Assembly (NCBI GenBank): GCA_000787465.1
Contig: JSYX01000099.1
Span: 1-64,000, forward strand
Length of the DNA stretch: 64,000 nucleotides
Source: Thermomucor indicae-seudaticae
Lineage: Eukaryota; Mucoromycota; Mucoromycetes; Mucorales; Lichtheimiaceae
Direction of reading: 5' to 3'
Part shown: positions 17,884 to 58,313 of the stretch, in pieces
Numbering within the stretch: the stretch's first letter is position 1
How the letters are laid out: the number at the start of each line of letters is the position of its first letter
Made by a program: the position numbers and the translations under genes
The notes under the pieces: generated by a model
The model's input: only the letters and a program-made list of their open reading frames with translations
The model's database searches: none
What the model was told of the DNA's origin: nothing

Positions 17884-19144
17884 TTAGTTGCAGTAAGAGA
17901 TCTTGCTGGAACCTTGGAGGTTCTTGCAGACGTTTGCGGTCGTCTTGGAGCCGGCCTTGACCGTGATATCCTTGATGGTAAAGTCCGTGCAAGGGGTATC
18001 AGTCGCGCAGTTGACGTAGAGGATCGGGTTCTTCTTGTTGTCCGCAGCCGTGCCCGAGATGCCCGAGATGGTCACGTCGCTGATCGATAACGAGTGCGAG
18101 TCTTGGCCGTTGCAGTACTTCATCTGGTTGTTGTCGCAATAATGGGTCGTGATCAGGATCGGGTTCTCGGCGTTCTCGAGGTAAATGTCCTCAAAGGCGA
18201 CGTCCTTCACCGTCCCCTTGCCGCCGGGCCAGGTCTTGATCCGGACACCGTTCTGGCAGCCAATGCAAGAGTTGGAGATGAATCGGAGGCCGGAAACCGA
18301 TTCGGTCTTGGAGCTGCCGTGCTTGCCCAGGGAACCAACGCTGAAACCGTGGCTGCCGGTGCACTTGAGGTCAGTGACCAAAAGATCGGTGACGCCTGCG
18401 GTGTAGTTAGTGAGTCATGGTATCTATTCTTCTTTTTTTCTCTCAGAGTACCATCATTGACGGCAATACAGTCGTCACCATTGACAATAGTGGACGAGCG
18501 GATGGTGACGTTGGAGGACGCAGAGACGTCAAAAGCATCGGTGTTGTGGGCGTCGTACTTTGCATTGTCTGACTTGGCGTGGAGGTTCAGTTTCTCAAAG
18601 ACGACGTTCTTGCATCCGTTAATGCTAAAGTGGGCTCTGGGTGCTTGGCTGATGGAGAAGCCGCCAAAGTACGAGTTGGTAGCCTTGGGCTTGAAAAGTG
18701 GCGGGGCCTTGCGGTTCTGGGCATTGTACCTTGAAACAGCAAATGAGTATATATATATGTGGGCTAGAGAGTGAATGAACGCGTCGATACATACCAGCCC
18801 TGACCGTTACCGTAAAAGGCACCCGAGCCGCTCCAGTGGATGTTGTCGCCTTCAATGTAGAAGAACGCCTTCTCCTTTGTGAACTTGATGTCGTACGAGG
18901 GGAGGTTGACGGTAGAGTCAAACTGGACGGTGACGTCCTTGAGACCGGTCACGGAAACGACGCTCTTCATGTTAAAAGTGGTGCCACTGGGGAAGACGAC
19001 CGTGCCGCCGTTCTTGCACTTGGAGAAAGCGGCTTCAATGTTGGACGAGTGATCGCCAGAGGTAGAGACGGTACAGGTGGTGCCGGCATTAACAAGGGCA
19101 GAAGCCAACCAAATGGCCAGACCGGTTGAGATAAAGAAGCGCAT
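17884..19144 (-). CDS. secreted endo-polygalacturonase (GH28)
   Basis: Three exons (19144-18795, 18729-18452, 18395-17884) give 379 aa. A signal peptide (MRFFISTGLAIWLASALVNA) leads to a right-handed beta-helix of family GH28. Catalytic motifs are present in order: 'NTDAFDVS', 'NGDDC', 'GSHGFSVGS' and 'RIKTW', providing the three catalytic Asp, the His and the substrate-binding Arg/Lys. The enzyme hydrolyses alpha-1,4-galacturonan in pectin outside the cell, typical of plant-debris-degrading Mucorales. Eleven or so Cys suggest disulphides. A TATA box lies about 60 nt before the ATG. The long open frame on the opposite strand (18094-18774) is antisense shadow. The name endo rather than exo is inferred from length and overall resemblance. 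Confidence 0.95.
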
Positions 19145-26397: not shown

Positions 26398-29300
26398 TTA
26401 GATATTCCTGCCCTTTCCGTAACGGCCAAAACCTCGCATGCCTGCATGCCCTGGTATCTTGAGTCCAATTCTGCTATGCAACGCTGCATTACGGCCTTCC
26501 TCATTGTTTTCTTCTCCTTCTTCAATTCGTCCGTTGCTATTGTACAGACCCCCGTATCGTGCTCGCTCCAGTGATGCTTCCAAGTCTACACTCAGGTTCG
26601 AACTCGCCAAAGAGTACGTGGCTGAATGTATCGAGCACCGGTCAATCGGCACCACAGAATCGGTTGAATACGATCTCCCACGTGGAACAGTCCTGGTTGT
26701 GCCAGCCGCCGCCGCCGAAGTCTCTCTTCCTCCTCCTGCTACTGCTGTACTACTGGGAGCGTAGTAAGATGAATATTCGTCATTAGTAGTAGTATTGCGT
26801 GAAGAATAGGTGAAATATGAAGACTGAGAATGACTCGGTTTATGTTGTTGTTGTTTGTTGTTGCCGGTTTGACGAAAATTGCGAAGGGTATGTTCCGGGA
26901 TATAGGGTGGTTGTTGTACTGCATAGCTATCGTGGAATGGATTGTCCAGTTCGGATGCGAAAGGGTTTTCGATAGTAGTAGGAGCCTTGGTCGAGCTCGC
27001 AGTAGAAATCTCAATGCTCCTCTCCCCATGTTCCTGTGGCAGTCGCACGGTGCTAGGCTTATTATAGCCAATAGTAGGGTTGCTGTCGCCTCGGCCACGC
27101 ATCGGGTACCTTCGCAGCTGTGCTGCTGCCATGGGTGGCGATGGTATCATTTGTTCCCCAAAGGATGATTGTACGCTATTTGCTCGTCGACCTCTTCCAC
27201 TCACGAACCCAGTAGTAAATCCTGTGAAATTCGAGTCCAATGCTGCCGCTTCTTCCATTGCGCGTTGATATGACTTTTCCATTTCTGCAGCTTCAAACTC
27301 GGCAAACCGTAGCCGTGGCAATAGATCTTCTTCTTCCACTTCTGTTGTGCTTTTCTGCTCGTAGACGTCTTCTTCCGATCGCGGTGATTTATTGTTGTTA
27401 TCGACAGCGCCATGAAGTCGTCCTCTCCTCCCCTTGTTGTTCGCTGTAGGCCACACATCATACCACCGCTCAGCGTAATCGCTACACCATGCTGCGACCA
27501 AAGGAAACCAAACCGCAAACAATGGGACCCCAAAAAGGCCGTAAATGATAAACCATAATACATACTTGAACTGCCGCCGGACAATAAAGTAAAGGATATG
27601 AAGCACAACGAGTGCCGTAAAGCTGATCGCAATAATGGTGTACGCGAGACCCCTTCCGATGAAGAACCGGATGTACACACCGTACAGGTATATAATGATA
27701 GGCACAGAGAATATCATATCCAACAATTTCGAAAACGATAATATCCAACAAGCGACACCGAGGTTCCATGCGACTCGATGCATCTCGATCTGGTTATGAA
27801 AAGCAGCACGTAGATTGCGTGACTGAAGTGCTTGCAAAGCAAAGATGTTGGTTGGCAACATAGCATACCCGATCGCTTCTGGCTCGAATCCAAGGCGATG
27901 GTGGGGATGGGACCGCAAAAGTACGATACCTAGATATTGCTCTTCTCCCAAAAGGAGTACGTTTTGCATGTGTAGCGTGTCCGGCCGCGGTGTCGCAAAT
28001 CCACGAAGCACGGTCGGATGAATACAACATGGTCTTATCCTAGAGTTGGGTGCCAACGACAGCCGGGATTCACGCCCTGTAGCCATTGTATCTCGCCCAC
28101 CACCACCATCACTGCTGCTGCTACGATCATCAGCGTAAGGGTTGATAATAATCTCGTCGCTCACTTTAGGCCACTTGCTAAGCGCCCGTATTGTCTGCTG
28201 CGATACGCTATTATTATTGAGCTCTTGCGCCACCGTAATCTGTTGTTCTTCTGCTGCCATGACCTCGGTCCACAATTTGTACATCATGAAGCCACCATTG
28301 ATTGAAAGAACAGTACCCAAGAAGGCTTCATACGCAAGCCCGGAGTAGAAAGTTAGATAAAGCGGGAATATCTGAAGCATGGTGGTGATGTTCTGCTCTG
28401 GGTTTGCCGGACGCACGTGGCCACTGATCGCGAGCATTTTCCTATCCTTTTCTAGCCGTGACACCATTTTCTGTAAGGCATCTCCCTGGACTTGCGTGTC
28501 TGCATCCATCACGAGCATATATTTGAATTTTCTTGGATCAATGCCGAGGACATTATAGAATTGGTTGAAAAGCTCATACTCCAGAGGCGTCATTCGATTA
28601 TTGGCTAGGTTCATGCAACGCTCCAGGAAACTGAACACCAGGACCAAAGAGTCACGTTTGCCTCGATTACCAGGCACGACTTCCAATGATGCTGCTTCTT
28701 TCGGGCTGCCAACCTTGACCACCACCAAATATGGTACCCGGTTTCGCCCCGTTTCATAAAAGCCGGAATACACTTTGGCGTAGTTGATCTTTTTGCGGTT
28801 CATGCCGAGCGATGCATACGGCTGAGAGACCGGATCCTCCGTTCCACTATAGCCGAGCGACTCCAAGATGCAGAGATACGTTTCCTTGGAATCATGTGCG
28901 CTCCTCACAAGCCCGTCGCAGACAAACAAGAGCAACTTTTTGCTGTCGTCGTAGTTGGTCCGTGCCAGCGAATCAAACGCCTGTTTCAGTGTCTCTGACG
29001 GCTCAGCGTAGCATGGTATCATTAAAATTGTGTACGGCCAGCCGGCGTTCCTGATCGCAGAGGAAAATTCGGGAGGCGTCGACGAAAATAACAATCGCTG
29101 CATGAACCGAAGCCGACACAGATGCGCCAAGTTCATCTTGATCAGGAAGTACAGCAAGCCAACGCCCATCGTCGCCCACAATGCCGGATTGATCTTTAAG
29201 CATCCCGTGGGTGCTAGCTCTTCCGTAATGCCGGCGTAAAACAGCGTTTTCATGCATTGCTCATAAATACCTGCGTTGGCAATGTTGGCTTCGAACTGAT

Positions 29301-30321
29301 CCGAAATGTCTTGACCGAGGTTGATAAATAACATTTGTGTCAGATCAAGCGGTAGGAACATACGATCCAGTGCGAATGCCCGTGAGTATATGCCGTCTGA
29401 TACCTCCACAACATTCGTCACTGTTTCGAGATAAAGGGTGACATCCAGTACCACGCCGTTGAGAACAACCAATGCCCGGCCGTCGCCGTAGATTGATGGC
29501 AGAGTTGTGAAATTGCTGACGACATCCATAGTGTACACAATGTCTATCAATCACAGACAATCAACATCACTATACACCTTCTTTCCCCAAAAAGAGAGAG
29601 ATGGAGAGACAAACCTCCGCTTGTCGGCAAATCCACTGGGTATGGATAACATGGCGCACCAGTTTGATTCCAATGACGCGGATACGGACAAGAAACGAGC
29701 TGGTTGTTTTCGTAGAGGTAACCAGGATTATCATTCAGTATTTCTGCAAGATAATTATCTGCCTGGGCGGACCGGTCCGTTATGCCGAAAATGCAAGCCT
29801 GTAACGTCGGGTCGTCGTAATAATCTCTCCCTTGACGATCCAGTAGTGTGATAAATTTCGGAAACATGCTCGAGACGTCCAGGCCGGTATAGTTCATGAC
29901 GGTGGCTGCAACCGGTGACGAGTGCATGTATTTCGACCAGTCCACTGCTTGTCCATGAAGCGCTGCGAATTTCGAATTGTTCTTGAAGACATTGTCGAAA
30001 GGTTCGGAATGCTCCGTGTCGCAAAAGAGTGTCGAGATATATTCCAACCAAAACAGAAAGACGCCGACAAAGACAAGGAAGAGGACACAGATTGCGATCT
30101 TTTCACGCCAAGCTTGACGAGCCGCTGCAAAGTACAGAAAAAATTAAAGTTTTTTGTGTGCAAAAAGGGGGCGCCACTTAATTACCTGCAGTGCGTAGAC
30201 CGACAACATATTTGAGGATAAAATCGGGGAATATAAAAGTACATGCTCGAGCAAACAGCACCCAGACAATGCGTCTGTAGGTAGGCTTGCGCACATATGA
30301 GTAGTTTTCGGCAACCCTCAT
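26398..30321 (-). CDS. divergent chitin-synthase-like protein (GT2)
   Basis: Three exons from ATG 30321 (30321-30186, 30124-29615, 29543-26398) give 1263 aa; an upstream first exon ending near 30350 cannot be excluded. The N-terminal membrane region ('FARACTFIFPDFILKYVVG', 'RQAWREKIAICVLFLVFVG') and lumenal part resemble class IV/V-type chitin synthases. The GT2 core keeps 'NRGKRDSL' and 'MLVMDADTQV' (near 28500). Further on the usual motifs are altered: CGET reads 'SGHV', LPGCF reads 'INGGF', the ED pair reads EE, and the QRRRW segment reads 'QSRNL' (27811-27825). Several membrane helices and 'SDYAERWYDVW' (usual DDFSWG-TR) follow, then a long Ser/Asn/Gly-rich tail. Chitin synthases polymerise GlcNAc from UDP-GlcNAc at the plasma membrane; this one probably cannot, and may be regulatory. 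The 340 bp upstream to 30664 hold nothing else. Confidence 0.85.
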
Positions 30322-34261: not shown

Positions 34262-35209
34262 CTATTGTTGAAGAGCGTCCGATAAAAATGATATTGAAGT
34301 GCTCAAGTACGAAGAGCCAAACATGTTGAGGTGATTGACAGCATGATAGAGCGCATAAATGCTGATTCGTTTGTCATAGCCCGGCTGCTTGGGTAATTTC
34401 TTGTGATATGCTTCGTAAAACGCTGGGCCGATTCCACCAAACAATTTCATGATACCCAAGTCGGCTTCATGATGACCCCAATAAGGAGCAGGATCCAATA
34501 CGACGGGCTCACCCGTGTTGGCGTCTGCAGCCCAGTTGCCACTCCACAAGTCGCCGTGCAAAAGGCTCGGTCGAACCTCGATCCCTTCAAAATAGGAATC
34601 CAAACGATCCAAAAGCTGCTGACCCATCTTTTTCAGCTGTGGGTTGCGTCCGCCGCGTGTTGCCAAATCAAACTGATACGAGAGACGTCGACGCAGAAAC
34701 TCGACCCAGTCCGATGTCCAGGTGTTGTCCTGAAAGGTGCTTCCGATCGTGTTATTGATCTCGAACCCGAACTGGTCCGGTCCCCGTACCAGGTGGAGAT
34801 CCGCCAGTTTCTCCCCAAGCTTTTGCTGGATATTGCCTCGACTACCACCTTCTAGCTGAAGATACTCCATCGCGAGAAACGCGCAACTTCCGTCTGATAA
34901 AACGCCGCTCGCGTACGGGACCGGGACCCGAATGGTTTTCGTGTCGGCCAAGGCACGAAGTCCTATTTCTTCGGCCGCAAACATTTCACGCACTTCCTCA
35001 AGCGATTGTCCCGGCGACGCGCGACACACTTTGACGAAAACTTCTTTGCCGGTGCTCGATGTGCAATGAAACGCATCACTCACGCAACCACCACCAATCT
35101 GCCGAACCTTCTCCAACGCCTCGTCTTTCCCAAGCACTTGGCGCTCTTGAAGGCAAGGCGTGAGTGTGCGTTGAATTGCTTCAGCAAGATTGCTTCCACC
35201 AAACGCCAT
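34262..35209 (-). CDS. fructosamine-3-kinase family protein
   Basis: Single-exon frame of 315 aa covering the whole FN3K (fructosamine/ketosamine-3-kinase) fold. Visible kinase-like features are the nucleotide-binding 'GGGCVSDAFHCTSSTGKEVF' with 'VKV' following, the hinge 'FLAMEYLQLEGG', the catalytic loop 'SLLHGDLWSGN' and the metal-binding 'VVLDPAPYWGHHEADLGIM', followed by 'LFGGIGPAFYEAYH'. These enzymes phosphorylate the sugar C3 of glycated protein lysines so that the adduct falls off, acting in the cytosol as protein repair. Length matches the family (about 300 aa). No intron, unlike most neighbours. The start is the first in-frame ATG, with the conserved helix immediately after. It may be co-transcribed with, or share regulation with, the gene 47 bp downstream, but fungi do not normally use operons. 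Confidence 0.93.
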   Translation of the reverse strand: MAFGGSNLAEAIQRTLTPCLQERQVLGKDEALEKVRQIGGGCVSDAFHCTSSTGKEVFVKVCRASPGQSLEEVREMFAAEEIGLRALADTKTIRVPVPYASGVLSDGSCAFLAMEYLQLEGGSRGNIQQKLGEKLADLHLVRGPDQFGFEINNTIGSTFQDNTWTSDWVEFLRRRLSYQFDLATRGGRNPQLKKMGQQLLDRLDSYFEGIEVRPSLLHGDLWSGNWAADANTGEPVVLDPAPYWGHHEADLGIMKLFGGIGPAFYEAYHKKLPKQPGYDKRISIYALYHAVNHLNMFGSSYLSTSISFLSDALQQ

Positions 35210-36763
35210 TTTGAAACCTTTCAGTAAAATCGTTGGTTTAATAGAAATGACTCGAGAAAGAAGGGAAAATAGGCGTCAGGAAAGTTCCGATAACACGTAA
35301 GACGAGGCTATAACGTGCCTGTATCGCCTATTAGATACATGATTGCGTGGATAGTAGCTCCGAGAAAAGAAAAGATGGTCTTGTTCATGTCAAGACGGTG
35401 CCTGTATCATCCTTGACCATTCTCCCCAAAGATGTCCTGTTCGTAACTCCATACGCTTCGTACACTCAGCATTCCACATGTCTGTAAGCAGCACGATAAA
35501 GAAGGCATGTATTCTTGCGTGTAAAACAGAGTCATGCTACGGCATCCATTCTGTTATCAGTAGTGGAAGGACAAGTTCTTCTGTTGCTTAACCGCAACCG
35601 CATGGATGAGCTAGCACATAAAGCTCTCGTAGGCGAAGTTATCTATTCACCTCGCATATCCGATTAAAGAACATGGCATCATGAATATTAAGTATACATG
35701 CTTCCATGAAAGTATCAGCCTAAAGCCTCGCTAGAACTTGCATAATGGTGATAAAGTATTGGGGCTTTGAAAGAGATCGCATCGAGGCTTGGCCGGACCT
35801 ATTAAAACCTCTTGATAGCTAGTTAACCGTACATCGGTCTTCCCGTACGCACCCGGATAACAATTGTAAATCGAGACCGTAGGAGAGATAGCAGTTCGAT
35901 AGTTATTTATTAAAAAACTACTTTACGTCTAACGGACTTATTGTCTTCGGGTATTTTCTTTTTCTATTGCCTCCAAGTGTTACGGTCGGCAAAGGAGTCT
36001 TGGGAATATATCCTATAAAGTTACTAGAAAAGTTGGGGGCTAAACTCAATGAGATTCTGTTGCCTTTACCATAATCAGCGGCTGCATATGGCAAAGAATG
36101 CGTGTCTAAGAAGCCGTTGGAAAATCGGCATAAATGCTGAGTGAAGAAAGTCCGTGCACCTGATTAGATTACACACCTGAATCCGAAGTGCACAGAGAAG
36201 GTGTCTGAAGAGAAGTAGACTTGCTGCTAGTCGACTTTGTAGTGTTGCGGATTCCTGTGTTTAACCTGTCAGGGCTACTGCCGGGAGTGTTTCGAGAGGA
36301 CGGTCGCCCGAGAAGATGTCGGAGATAGACTCAGAGGAGAGGGTTCCGTATTAGTTGTCGTCGAATGGAGGCTGCACAGAGGGGGAGAAGCTCTGCTGAT
36401 CGTTGTAGAATATGCCTTCATTATTGTTTGATTTACAAACGTACCCAGTACGGTGTACCGACCATGGTAGTACGTTTCGAGTTGACGTCTTGTATCCAAG
36501 CGAACTTTAACAACCAGTACAATGGATATAGGCTTGTACTTAGGTCTCAGTAACGCAGAAGTTGTATATTACTGGTTGAGTGAACCCATGACAGTCTCTC
36601 ATTTAGATACGGATACCTCTGTTACCGCTTTGAACTCCTTGAGACAAGTTAATAGGCCCATGGCAAATAGAAAGTTATAAATAGGGTGTAGAATTGGACG
36701 TAATAAAAAGGATATCTTTCGGTCTCACTGACCCTTAGTTTCCTTACTATTGTGATATTTCAT
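35210..36763. other. 1.55 kb intergenic, nothing recognised
   Basis: Lies between the FN3K start and the APSES stop. Only short open frames are present (for example 36275-36499, minus, Ser/Thr-rich), without domain support. Confidence 0.45.
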
Positions 36764-51900: not shown

Positions 51901-54900
51901 TGGCTTAAAAGGTTATGCATGACAGACAATATGGCGCGGTGCTGGTTTACGGCCAAGACATTGAGCCCAGCAGATAGTGGAGTAGATGCTTATTATCCTG
52001 CAACATCAACAGCGCAACAGTCTCCGAGTATTGAGATAACGATTCGATCCTCTGCATCTGCTGGTAGTTCCTCGGTATCCGCAGCGAAGCCTGGATTTTT
52101 CGGCACAGGTTCAGATATTCCTGGCAACTTGTTCGAGCACTTGAGCAGAAATGAAGGCTTCAACGTCGATCAGAAGATTCATGTGCCTATGGAAGAACAA
52201 GCGGAGTGCGCCATGGCGTTTAAGCAACGGACTGTTGAGACTTCTGTAAGGGTCGATCTATCAGTAGCGGCTTTGGATGCGGACTAATGTCATCTGATAT
52301 TAATAACAGCTTTTTGTCGTCAACTGCCACTTTCCGTTGACCCGCTTGAGTATTACAAGACAAGTCTGGGATAGAGTGCAAATACTGCAAAACGACGCGA
52401 TACTGTGGCAACCCAGGTTCCTAAATAATTTGACGAATGGTGCAGATCACAACGTCAGCACAGCGTCAGTGTTATCCACGGATTCAGAGGGATATGGAAG
52501 CTCTAAGTACTATTCAATGTCGACTGAGCAACCTGCGAGCATTAATTTCTTGAGGTCCAGCAGTATCATGAGTCAGAGCCTTGAAAGACTGGGGACAGAG
52601 AGACAGACACCCAGCCTGCTTGCCTTGGTAGTTGTTATGAGCGACGGTAAGTGTATAGGACCTGCTGTATGCATCCAACTTGTAGAAATAACGTGTCTAA
52701 AAACAGCAATATGGGACTTGATTCATGTGCCTGCCGAGGACCAAACACAAACGACTTACCGAGTACACATGTCTGACTTCCGATATTTTACTGTGCTAAA
52801 GCATTTGGGACTGGTGAGTTATATGAAGTAGGGAATATGGTTGTGGAAGCTCATAAAGTTTTGGCCAACTAGAACGAGAACATTACCACGCTTGATATAG
52901 ATGACCTCACGCTAAGTCGAATAACACCAAGTCATGTTCCTATTATTTACCGGACGTTGCCAAAGACGCTGAATGTAAGCTGAAGGTTCGTGTTTGGAAT
53001 TAGGAGATGCTTACGAGCGTGTAGAGCAAGCGAAACAACGCAATGATATCAATCTTTGCACGGTTGACACCCTATCCAGAACTCAACAAGCAAAACAAAC
53101 TCACGAGTGTTGTCGTCAATAATCTCTGCTGGCGCTTTAGCATGGATTTGAGCTTTCTTGAGCAATTAATGCCGTTTCAGAAAATTCCGGAAGAAGTAAG
53201 TGCCCGTTTATCCATTCAAATAACCATTCTAAATGATTCCTCCTTTTGCAGATGGTATTCATTGATCCGCCTACCCAGTACAACAAAGTGTATGCACATA
53301 TCCTTGACACCTCGATCGACTATAAACCATTGCATATACCCTCTAGATGCATAACTGTTGTTGAAAATTTTCGGGTAAGTGACAAGCATTTGAACAAAAT
53401 AAGGGTGAACTTATAGCAATGTGTGTCCAGGTGGTTACTGAAGTAATATCAAGTGGACAACCGCTGCTGGATGTACAAGCTTGCGTGGATAGTTTGAACA
53501 TTTACCTTATGGATGACGCGACCGAAATTGATGACAAGAAAGCAAAGCAGACGATCGAGTTACTTGGGAACCGACAAGTGGACTCGAAGAAATACTGGAG
53601 CACCATGGGATTTCCTTTAATATTACGCGTGCAAAGTTTTGATAGCCGTATCAAAGTGAAATTGGACGATCTGATTGAAGCACCCGGCATTGATATTGCA
53701 GTGCTGAACAACGTGCTTGTATTCGAAGGCTGCGCCGATTCCTTTCACAGTCTGATAAATTTCTTGACGTATACGGCAAACCAAGGTGACAAGTTGGATG
53801 AGGCTGGAAATAGAGAATCAAGGAAAGAGAAAGGGAAAAAGCCAATGGTCCCAAGACAGCCTGTTGTGGTTACTCGTCGAAAGAGCGGCCAAGGCGACGA
53901 CGAACAGCAGAATGAGGACATGCTGGCCAGCCTTGATCCTGACGCTTTTCGACGTTGGACAAACGGCCCAGTGGCTGATCATGGTGAAGGCTTTGGAGTA
54001 TCATTACCGGAGCATCTGTCACCTGGAACAGGGTCGACTCTGGGCTATGTGGAGGAATACTACACCACATCTTCCGTTCAGATGCCTCCTACGAACAAGC
54101 CGCAAAAGCCTCGCCGGAGACGTGATCTTGTTAACGATCAAGAAGGTTTCGTCAAGGTTTTGGCTCCAGATACGTATGAGCTTGACGTTGTTGAAGACTA
54201 TTATGTGGTCAACAAACAAAAAGTGGCCCCGAAAAAACACATCGTCGATATAAAGAGGGCGCTTTTGACGGCACGCGTGCGCGATTTCGATATCCATTTG
54301 AAGCTTTACGATGGTCATGACGTGCAATATATTCATGCTGAAACAAGCAAGCGGCCGCCGCCACCAACGCGCCCGGCATCGTGTAGTAGCACTGGTAGCT
54401 ACAGCAACCAGCACATATTGAGCGATTCCCTTTCTCGGGCAAGTAGCATTGACACCAATGCTACTTGGGATACGATGGCAGGGTTGTCGACACCGAGAAC
54501 GGTCTCGCCTGCCGAGTATGATATTTCGTCGCGATCTATGTCACTAGCTTCGGAGCATTCAGACAGTGTATTTGTGGACAGCAGCTTTGGCAGTGGCGAC
54601 GGTAGAAAGAAACCATCGCGGGCATCGACAACCGATCGTCGGCCGCAGCAGCGACGTCGACGACGAAGTTCTCCTGATATTGAGATCCATGTAGAAAGAT
54701 TATCGCTTGAACTGGACGTGATGCCTGTCAGCGATCAGCTTGGACTGCACTTGGTTTTGGCCGTGCGAGATTACGAAGTGATTGACAATGTGAAAACCTC
54801 ATCATGGAATAAGTTTTTGGGATACATGCGCCCGGATATCAATGAATTGCCACGCGAACAGGGCTCGGATATGTTGCGGTTGGAGTTGACCGGTGTTCGT

Positions 54901-56215
54901 CCGGTACGAGAAGACCCGACTATGGAGTATAGAGCTAAATTGAAGCTATTACCACTAAGGCTCTATGTCGATCAAGATGCTTTAAACTTTCTTGTCAAGT
55001 ATTTCACCTTTGACAAGAACTTGCTACGTTCAACGGCTTTAGCGAACGCTTCTATTCCTGAGGATGCCGCTAACACTGCAAATAATGAGACGAAAGGCTC
55101 AGGAAACGATATATTTTTGCGTAAGTAGTTCTGTAAGAAGCCTAGAAATGAATGAGTGATGCTAAGGCTAAAGAATGCAGAACATGTGGAAATCTACCCA
55201 ATCGCCTTAAAGATTGATTATAAGCCCAAGTGTATCAACTATGGCAATATCAAAGAAGGTCAATTAGCCGAGCTCGTGAACCTTTTCCATTTGGACGGTG
55301 CCGAGATCAAGCTGAGTCACATCAAACTGACAGGCGTAAACGGCCTTACTCGCCTGAGTGAAAAGCTCGCGCAAGAGTGGTTGCCTCACATAAAGAACAC
55401 TCAGGTGCCGCATATGGTTTCAGGCGTGTCTCCTATTCGGTCCATAGTCAATGTAGGATCTGGCATGGCCGACCTGATTCTTCTACCGATACATCAATAT
55501 CGCAAAGATGGACGCATTATCCGAGGTATGGAGCTAGCTAGAAGTTTATCCAAGCTTAGTGCTTACCTTTTTTTTTTTCTGTCTGTCAGGCTTACAAAAA
55601 GGCACACAATCTTTTGCCCGGGCAACAGCCACAGAAGCTCTTAAGTTGAGTGCTAGGCTCGCTTCTGGTGCACAAGTCATTTTGGAACACGCCGACGACT
55701 TCTTCTCGTCATCTTCTTCGCCTGGCCGCCATGTATACTACTATGATCAAGAAGGAAGCGACGTGGAAGAAGATGATGGCGAAGACGACTATGTCTATGC
55801 TGACTCTGCTACGGCTGCGGCTGCGATGAATGAATACTATAATCATCGAAGCACCCGTAGCAAGTTTGCTAATCAGCCATCGGATATATCCCAAGGACTT
55901 CAGTACGCTTACCGGAGCCTCAGTCGTAATTTCGGTTCTGCTGCGCACACCATCCTAGCGGTGCCGACCGAGGTGGATCCGCAAAGTAGTGGGTCTTCTC
56001 CTACGAACACTCCAACCAAGACTATCATACGAGCTGTGCCTGTTGCAGTTATCAAGCCCATGATCGGCCTTACGGGTGCGTTTCAGAGTATTTTGATGGG
56101 TCTACGAAATACCATTGACCCAGCGATGCGTTTACAGAATGAAGATGTAAGTCTATCTTGTTGCGTAATTATGCAGCTTTCTAACACCAATCTTTAGAAA
56201 TACAAGAGAGGATAA
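48989..56215 (+). CDS. ATG2: autophagy-related protein 2 (ATG2)
   Basis: A bridge-like lipid-transfer protein that links ER and phagophore and supplies lipid for autophagosome growth. The start at 48989 gives the chorein-type N-terminus: 'TIIQKRLYKFLLRKAIGQFI', 'ELDLENFDIELVNGSVELRD', 'LNECITDTPFTLEQGRVASI'. Verified early exons: 48989-49183, 49254-49419, 49485-51218. Further exons follow at about 51288-51435, 51510-51863, 51922-52246 and 52312 onward, then one long exon around 53450-55120. The C-terminal ATG2 region is clear: 'SQGLQYAYRSLSRNFGSAAH', 'IIRAVPVAVIKPMIGLTGAF', 'LMGLRNTIDPAMRLQNED', and a last exon KYKRG-stop. Total roughly 2000 aa, usual for ATG2. Long Ser/Thr-rich insertions lie between conserved blocks. 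Middle exon borders between 52650 and 53450 were not all checked. Confidence 0.95.
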
Positions 56216-56500: not shown

Positions 56501-58313
56501 TTAGTAGCTTCTGCCAAACAACATCCAATGCTTGGCATCTTGGCCACAAGCAACGCACTTGGTAACGCCAGGGACGATGGGATCATCCTCGGGTTGATCA
56601 AAAGGTTTGCAGAGGGACTTGGCACCCATGGACGGAGCACGCTCGTCTTCCTCTTCACCTTCATTAGCACTATACCTCGTTCCGCTGTTAGTTAAAAGAG
56701 AAAAAGTCCATGTTGGGTTAGTATAACTTACGTTCTAGCGGAATTCTCCTTGATACTGTCTTCGCACTCCGTACGATCGCACCATGGGATCAAGCACAGC
56801 TTCTTGCTGTTCAGTGTAGGCACAAAGTCTTCCCACTTCTTGACGCGCACAATGGACTCGTCCATCTGGCGCTTGGCACGCTCGAACATTTCGCGCTGAA
56901 TGGTGTCCAGGGTATCCTTGACGCCTTGCTCGAGATTGTCCAAAGGAATCGCGAACTTGGCGCCCGTATCGCGGCGCGCACACGTCACCTGCAACTTCTG
57001 CAAGTCCTTGGGGCCAATCTCGATACGGAGCGGCACGCCGCGAACCTCCCAGTGGTTGAACTTGAAGCCTGGGGTATAATTTTCTCGGAGGTCCGTCTTG
57101 ACCTTGACGCCGACCTTCTTGAGGCGCTCAGCAACGTCCTTGCATCCGTTGTGCACCTTCTCGAAATCGGCCTGCGTCGACTTGACCGTCAGACCACAGG
57201 GGATAATCACGCACTGGTACAGAGCCACGCGCGGGGGGAGAACAAGGCCCTTGTCGTCGCCGTGGACCATCACCATCACACCAATCGTACGCGTCGAAAG
57301 ACCCCACGAGTTCTGCCACACGTAGACCTTTTTGGCTTCCTCGCTTGCGCTGGCGGGAGCATTCGGGTCTTCGACCGTGATGTTGAACATCTTGCTAAAG
57401 TTCTGTCCCAAGCAGTGTGAAGTGCCACCCTGGATAGCACGGCCCGTCGCAGGAATGAAACCTTCCACGGTCGTGGTGTACAGACCACCTGCAAACTTTT
57501 CCTTTTCCGATTTCACACCCTTCACCACAGGCAAGGCCAACAGGTCGTTGTAGACTTGGGCGTACAAGTCCAAAATCTCTCGAACTTCCTTCCCAGCTCC
57601 CTCCTCTGTCAAATGGGCAGTGTGTCCTTCTTGCCACAAGAATTCGCGGGTACGGAGGAAAGGCTCTGCCATCGGGCCAATTGTCAGAAGTCTATGTTGC
57701 AGAACGGTCGTTAGAAGATCACTTACGAGGATGCTTGAATTCCCAACGGACAACAGAGCACCACTGATTAATACGGAATGGAAGATCACGGTGAGAACGG
57801 ATCCATTTCGAAAAGTAAGGGTACATGACAGTCTCGGATGTAGGGCGGATAGCAAGTGGTTCTTCCAGATCGCTCGAACCCGCCTTGGTGACCCAAGCAA
57901 CTTCGGGTGCAAATCCTTCAATGTGGTCCTTCTCCCGCTGCAGAGACCGGTTCGACACAAACATGGGGAAATAAGTGTCCTCCACACCCATTTCAGTGAT
58001 TGCATCGTCGAAGAAGTCTGCCACAGTAACGTCAACATTCATTCTAAGCGCACGCGCGCTAACTGCAAGACTCTACTTACTGGTAATTTGCTTCCAGATG
58101 TTGTAGGCAAGAGGACGCAAGATGTAACAACCCGAGACATCGTAATAGTCCAGCATTTCACTTTTCAAAAGGACCTGAGAAAAACAATCAGTCATGCCAG
58201 CCTCTCTCTCCCCCCTAATGGATACCTTGCATTACCTGCTGGTACCATTTGGGAAGATCGACATCCTTCTTGTACTCGATACCCAATTGGTGACTATCGT
58301 CGGCTTTGCCCAT
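56501..58313 (-). CDS. prolyl-tRNA synthetase, cytosolic
   Basis: Five exons (58313-58236, 58174-58081, 58017-57727, 57665-56732, 56684-56501) close in frame to 526 aa. Class II synthetase of the eukaryote/archaeal type that charges tRNA-Pro. Motif 1 region '[20 protein letters not shown]', motif 2 '[20 protein letters not shown]' and '[20 protein letters not shown]', proline pocket '[17 protein letters not shown]', motif 3 near '[13 protein letters not shown]'. The anticodon-binding domain follows, then the C-terminal zinc-type domain ending '[18 protein letters not shown]' with the terminal Tyr typical of this type. It lacks the N-terminal editing-like (YbaK) domain found in yeast and many other fungi, since the protein starts '[17 protein letters not shown]' close to the catalytic core. 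The long open frame through the third intron is fortuitous. Confidence 0.96.

Follow-up and report, generated by a model that had tools for sequence, protein, structure and literature searches.

The locus described here lies on the minus strand of the window, a 64,000-nucleotide stretch of Thermomucor indicae-seudaticae DNA, and raises the question of whether a chitin-synthase-like membrane protein that has exchanged several of its signature motifs is still an enzyme and, if so, what it makes. Our comparison of the encoded protein with its relatives favors, with a probability of about 0.6, an active GT2 transferase whose acceptor gate has been rebuilt and whose product is not chitin. The coding gene consists of three exons separated by GT-AG introns (Table 1) and specifies a product of 1263 aa, and the Phycomyces relative P0013 aligns with the start of exon 1 from its own residue 1. 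Exon 3 is open over the approximately 3.1 kb that the earlier note had described as an uninterrupted frame. The Chitin_synth_2 domain (PF03142) was matched at 317 bits against a Pfam cut-off of 27 and, judged by its sequence, the window gene is a division II chitin synthase homologue with altered motifs. A cytochrome-b5-like match reached 21.7 bits in the window protein, under the Pfam cut-off of 23.7, and 31 bits in the Basidiobolus clade member P0115. Relatives carry DEK_C in a C-terminal part that the window protein, ending earlier, does not reach (window 26398-26470 and downstream), and when the final 220 residues from seven relatives were compared with the DNA downstream of the window gene, no match was obtained.

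Table 1. Features of the window gene, in window coordinates with residue numbers of the predicted protein.
Feature	Position	Strand	Remarks
Exon 1	30186..30321	-	Residues 1-45; start codon at 30321; splice sites and open frame
Exon 2	29615..30124	-	Flanked by GT-AG introns; reading frame maintained
Exon 3	26398..29543	-	Whole GT2 core, C-terminal membrane helices, tail and stop codon; open frame, PF03142 match
NRGKRDSL	28645..28668	-	Nucleotide-sugar motif, kept
MDADT	28495..28509	-	Metal-binding DxD, kept
ISGHV	28414..28428	-	Replaces canonical xCGET; Glu591 and Thr592 positions changed
QIFPL	28360..28374	-	Replaces QxxEY (channel-entrance motif); Glu609 and Tyr610 positions changed
INGGF	28288..28302	-	Replaces LPGCF; gate-loop signature Pro gone (Pro631 and Cys633 positions)
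Insert between gate motif and base site	28030..28269 (approximate)	-	Residues 641-720
GEEQY	27934..27948	-	Replaces GEDRY; general-base site carboxylate retained as Glu750
LQSRN	27814..27828	-	Faces QRRRW; Arg791 retained (27819-27817); Asn792 (27816-27814) in place of Trp

All peptides quoted in the earlier note are encoded on the minus strand at the positions it gave, and one of its pairings requires correction. QSRNL (27825-27811) had been set against QRRRW and is present at that place, but the register is off by one, as the alignments pair LQSRN with QRRRW, whose Arg shares an invariant column with R791. The same register comes from profile alignments to PsChs1 and Xenopus HAS1, both of them weak at that place. 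With LQSRN facing QRRRW, the Arg of QxxRW is therefore kept and its Trp lost. The exchange of QxxEY for QIFPL is a further changed acceptor motif, which the first reading of this locus had overlooked.

The extent of these changes was assessed across proteins from three protein searches, which together list 242 proteins, the best 120 of 158, 158 and 656 matches. P0001 was dropped because it is identical to the window protein in exon 3. The clade set of 118 rows comprises the window protein, P0002-P0115 and P0159-P0161, with the boundary after P0115 fixed by search rank and the motif table, and with P0159-P0161 included for their lack of QxxRW. The canonical set of 129 rows comprises P0116-P0158, P0162-P0242 and five proteins of this genome (L031-L035). 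Taxon labels were taken from source names, and many rows carry none. P0114 is gapped at the early motifs, which gives a denominator of 117 there.

On the donor and catalytic side the clade is strongly conserved. NRGKRD is found in 117/117 readable clade rows, as is the first Asp of DxD, and the second Asp is kept in 114/117 with Asn in the other three. Glu749 and Arg791, the Arg of QxxRW, are each present in 118/118, and position 750, the general-base site, is acidic throughout (83 Glu, 35 Asp), Asp being the canonical residue there. Glu is able to act as the base in inverting GT-A enzymes. These counts do not support the earlier claim that catalytic residues are missing. What has changed is the acceptor side, as the earlier note had also held: Glu591 and Thr592 of CGET, Glu609 and Tyr610 of QxxEY, Pro631 and Cys633 of LPGCF, and Trp792 of QRRRW are each found in 0/118 clade rows and 129/129 canonical rows, where the Trp count is true by construction for the 81 rows P0162-P0242, called canonical for having QxxRW, and the other residues are independent of that choice. 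In the earlier 48 canonical rows, chosen without a QxxRW test, the Trp, Pro, Glu and Tyr are each present in 48/48. The Gln position of QxxRW is Leu in 84/118 clade rows, and new basic residues are conserved at Lys556 (113/117) and Arg794 (109/118). Thr565 of the window protein, the counterpart of PsChs1 Thr385 by the alignment made here, is replaced by Ile, Val, Met or Leu in 54/117. At the metal site, the clade members P0071, P0089 and P0093 read DAN instead of DAD and may be losing activity.

Solved chitin synthases provide a framework for interpreting this division. In PsChs1, according to the available part of PMC9556331, Pro454 and Trp539 enclose a chain sugar at the entrance of the channel, Tyr433 touches Trp539, Arg538 contacts the diphosphate and Thr385 is a small residue flanking the sugar site; alanine changes at Glu432, Tyr433, Pro454 and Trp539 greatly impaired chitin synthesis. 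The portion of PMC10409773 at hand describes the equivalent slit in ScChs1 (Trp760, Pro675 and Tyr654) and Asp717 as the putative base. From the roles reported for the equivalents in these two enzymes, the clade appears to keep donor-side residues and to replace acceptor-side residues. The oomycete and yeast enzymes PsChs1, ScChs1 and CaChs2 have their fold in common with the window protein, whereas the clade has replaced the Tyr and the Pro/Trp slit by which PsChs1 and ScChs1 hold the acceptor sugar.

The clade with these substitutions, for which the earlier note had proposed to look, comprises the window protein and 117 relatives in Mucorales and beyond, with named members in Mucorales, including Rhizopus, in Endogonales and in Basidiobolus. 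After thinning at 88% identity, a FastTree analysis with 73 clade rows and 35 canonical ones supported monophyly of the clade at 0.998, and at 1.0 with the motif columns masked. A single Basidiobolus row fell outside the remaining clade rows (0.998; 0.995 masked). A group was also recovered for the 70 presumed Mucorales rows (0.993; 0.988 masked). The Gln of QxxRW is still present in three Endogonales-like and four Basidiobolus rows, and the early branches of the clade look like steps of motif change. Fennellomyces supplies the closest named relative among the matches listed, at 78% across the region searched. P0157, the only Mortierella protein whose place was tested in a tree, is canonical; no match named Umbelopsis occurs among the best 120 of 158, 158 and 656 matches.

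Within this genome the window gene stands apart. Among 15 loci with PF03142 matches that were examined, five weaker matches being left out, 13 keep QRRRW, LPGCF and CGET, so that 13/13 other division II genes are canonical; at L044 and L045 no two of the sought patterns fall in one frame. The window gene has no close second copy, the next best match in the genome being at most 38% identical over longer pieces. A Pfam scan of ten window reading frames revealed no sugar-polymer cluster. An Atg2-family reading frame (53383-55128, plus strand) and a prolyl-tRNA synthetase-like reading frame (56728-58038, minus strand) are ordinary neighbors, and the window also holds a GH28 (polygalacturonase-family) stretch at 17884-18414 and a fructosamine-kinase-family reading frame at 34262-35275, both on the minus strand.

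Sequence constraint is also unevenly distributed within the protein. Identity to the Fennellomyces relative is 80 and 85% in the catalytic segments and 53% in the tail; for eight canonical pieces from this genome, identity to two Fennellomyces chitin synthases, which are possibly non-orthologous, is 47-84%. A set of 114 sites is conserved in 95% or more of 35 canonical rows; in the 70 Mucorales rows, 48 of these sites are kept by 90% or more and 37 by no more than 10%. The donor segment retains 25 such sites and has lost 5, compared with 11 kept and 20 lost in the gate and QxxRW helix (Fisher p 0.0002 after setting aside 19 intermediate sites in both), a p value that serves as a guide only, since the segments were picked after the pattern had been seen and sites are non-independent. 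Outside that test, residues 717-783 have 7 kept and 4 lost sites and residues 813-935 have 5 kept and 8 lost, so the losses are not limited to the gate.

The structural model is consistent with a transferase core. An AlphaFold2 model of 27265-29529 (pLDDT 87.3, pTM 0.81) has the GT2 synthase fold, and the first Foldseek rows are hyaluronan synthases (Chlorella virus HAS and Xenopus HAS1), which have this fold in common with the window protein but differ from it and its clade in possessing QxxRW. A hyaluronan synthase was also the only PDB sequence match of a 43-row clade profile, at 22 bits; the corresponding search with 43 canonical rows, like one with a single canonical protein, was dominated by myosin motors and was repeated with six rows. 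The earlier statement that all membrane segments are kept is broadly right, in that two AlphaFold2 models have similar sets of long helices and a hydropathy scan finds 6 membrane segments in the window protein against 5-8 in seven compared proteins, although their positions do not all match. The loop from gate to base site has a median length of 121 (50-208) in 111 rows taken as Mucorales and 37 (36-41) in 48 canonical rows, and measures 37-81 in three Endogonales-like rows and 36 in the Basidiobolus row. The enlarged Mucorales loop, lying beside the gate, may serve a new acceptor or its control. The insert in the window protein is long and variable and contains a KWPKVSDE stretch, and a KWPK-like pattern occurs in 82/111 rows taken as Mucorales.

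The closest canonical proteins among the matches listed are of the division II superclass V type (cytochrome-b5-like, Chitin_synth_2, often with DEK_C and a myosin head). PF03142, the donor motifs and domain order are common to both, whereas the QxxEY, LPGCF and QRRRW of superclass V are absent from 118/118 clade rows, and no myosin head was found in the window protein or the six clade proteins scanned. According to the accessible text of PMC5122149, the survey by Goncalves et al. (2016) excluded proteins lacking D, D, D, QXXRW and did not retain the 'class VIII' of Melida et al. (2015), a paper whose title concerns Mucoromycotina cell walls and which is known to us through that text, the reason being the lack of QXXRW. 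By this description class VIII was reported without QXXRW, as is the clade found here, for which the present comparison shows that the Arg is kept, that further acceptor motifs are lost and that Endogonales and Basidiobolus have members. The clade is most likely class VIII, and its existence is probably not new. What is added here is the corrected register, the joint loss of acceptor-site residues while catalytic ones are kept, the single origin of the clade, and its members in Endogonales and Basidiobolus. In the open PMC literature, judged mostly from listings, we found no functional study of the clade.

Together, the clade counts, single origin, acceptor-side losses, conserved core and GT2 fold model speak for an active transferase. 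In this model the window protein would be a membrane-bound GT2 glycosyltransferase that descends from a division II chitin synthase; the donor and metal motifs, acidic base position and QxxRW Arg have been retained across the clade and the acceptor-site residues at the channel entrance replaced in every member examined. Sugar would still be moved from a UDP-sugar, to a different acceptor or chain, and the product would then not be ordinary chitin. The alanine results from PsChs1, as reported in the available part of that study, make ordinary chitin synthesis unlikely at such a site, and for the same reason activity cannot be assumed. The earlier note had left the choice between a pseudoenzyme and another specificity, and the latter fits better because DxD, the acidic base site and the QxxRW Arg are kept. 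A protein that binds UDP-sugar or UDP, forms no bond and serves canonical chitin synthases as a partner or regulator, for example in a mixed dimer, is a considerably less likely alternative: all three acceptor-site elements are lost together, single alanine changes at those elements cripple PsChs1 by that account, and the DxD, Arg and carboxylate could also be conserved for ligand binding in a protein that does not catalyze. The DxN of 3/117 rows would likewise count against an active transferase. However, the window protein has lost neither metal-binding nor base residues, the base site and QxxRW Arg are kept in 118/118 and both DxD Asps in 114/117, and a dead enzyme need not retain its base site.

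A protein that still makes chitin or short chito-oligosaccharides through a differently built gate would agree with the unchanged donor motifs and the homology to chitin synthases, but appears somewhat less probable again, given that all listed acceptor-site signature residues are absent in 118/118 rows and that the Thr565 position is so often exchanged. The possibility that the protein synthesizes mucoric acid, the glucuronic-acid polymer of Mucorales, which is a bold proposal and the most doubtful of the functional alternatives, is a special case of the transferase with a rebuilt gate, and its odds overlap with those of that reading. Its support is circumstantial: the accessible part of PMC6433966 reports GlcA transfer from UDP-GlcA to polyuronides by membranes of Mucor, which reach full activity only with Mn2+, and names no gene there; the genome has one UDP-glucose dehydrogenase-family locus; and Lys556 and Arg794 are new basic residues. 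Bacterial glucuronan genes were still unknown in 2023, according to the portion of PMC10180729 available. Against it, solid-state NMR of Mucorales gave no GlcA signals in the available text of PMC11437000, yet clade members occur in Rhizopus, and the likeness to hyaluronan synthases is not specific. Strain-specific decay or an assembly error has a negligible probability. The window copy does end before the DEK_C part of its relatives, but its frame is open over 3.1 kb and its core is 80-85% identical to the Fennellomyces relative; as the cause of the motif changes it is ruled out by the 117 other sequences with the same pattern. The earlier judgment that this is not simple decay thus holds, on the open frame and on a motif pattern common to a single clade.

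In summary, a survey that required QXXRW, as far as its available text describes, put such proteins aside as dubious, yet together they make up one conserved clade whose donor site is intact. Should they be active, they would illustrate how a processive synthase changes its acceptor while its catalytic core stays, and the window gene would be a candidate gene for a Mucorales wall polymer; if instead the protein is a non-catalytic partner, it would represent an unusual regulator of chitin synthesis.
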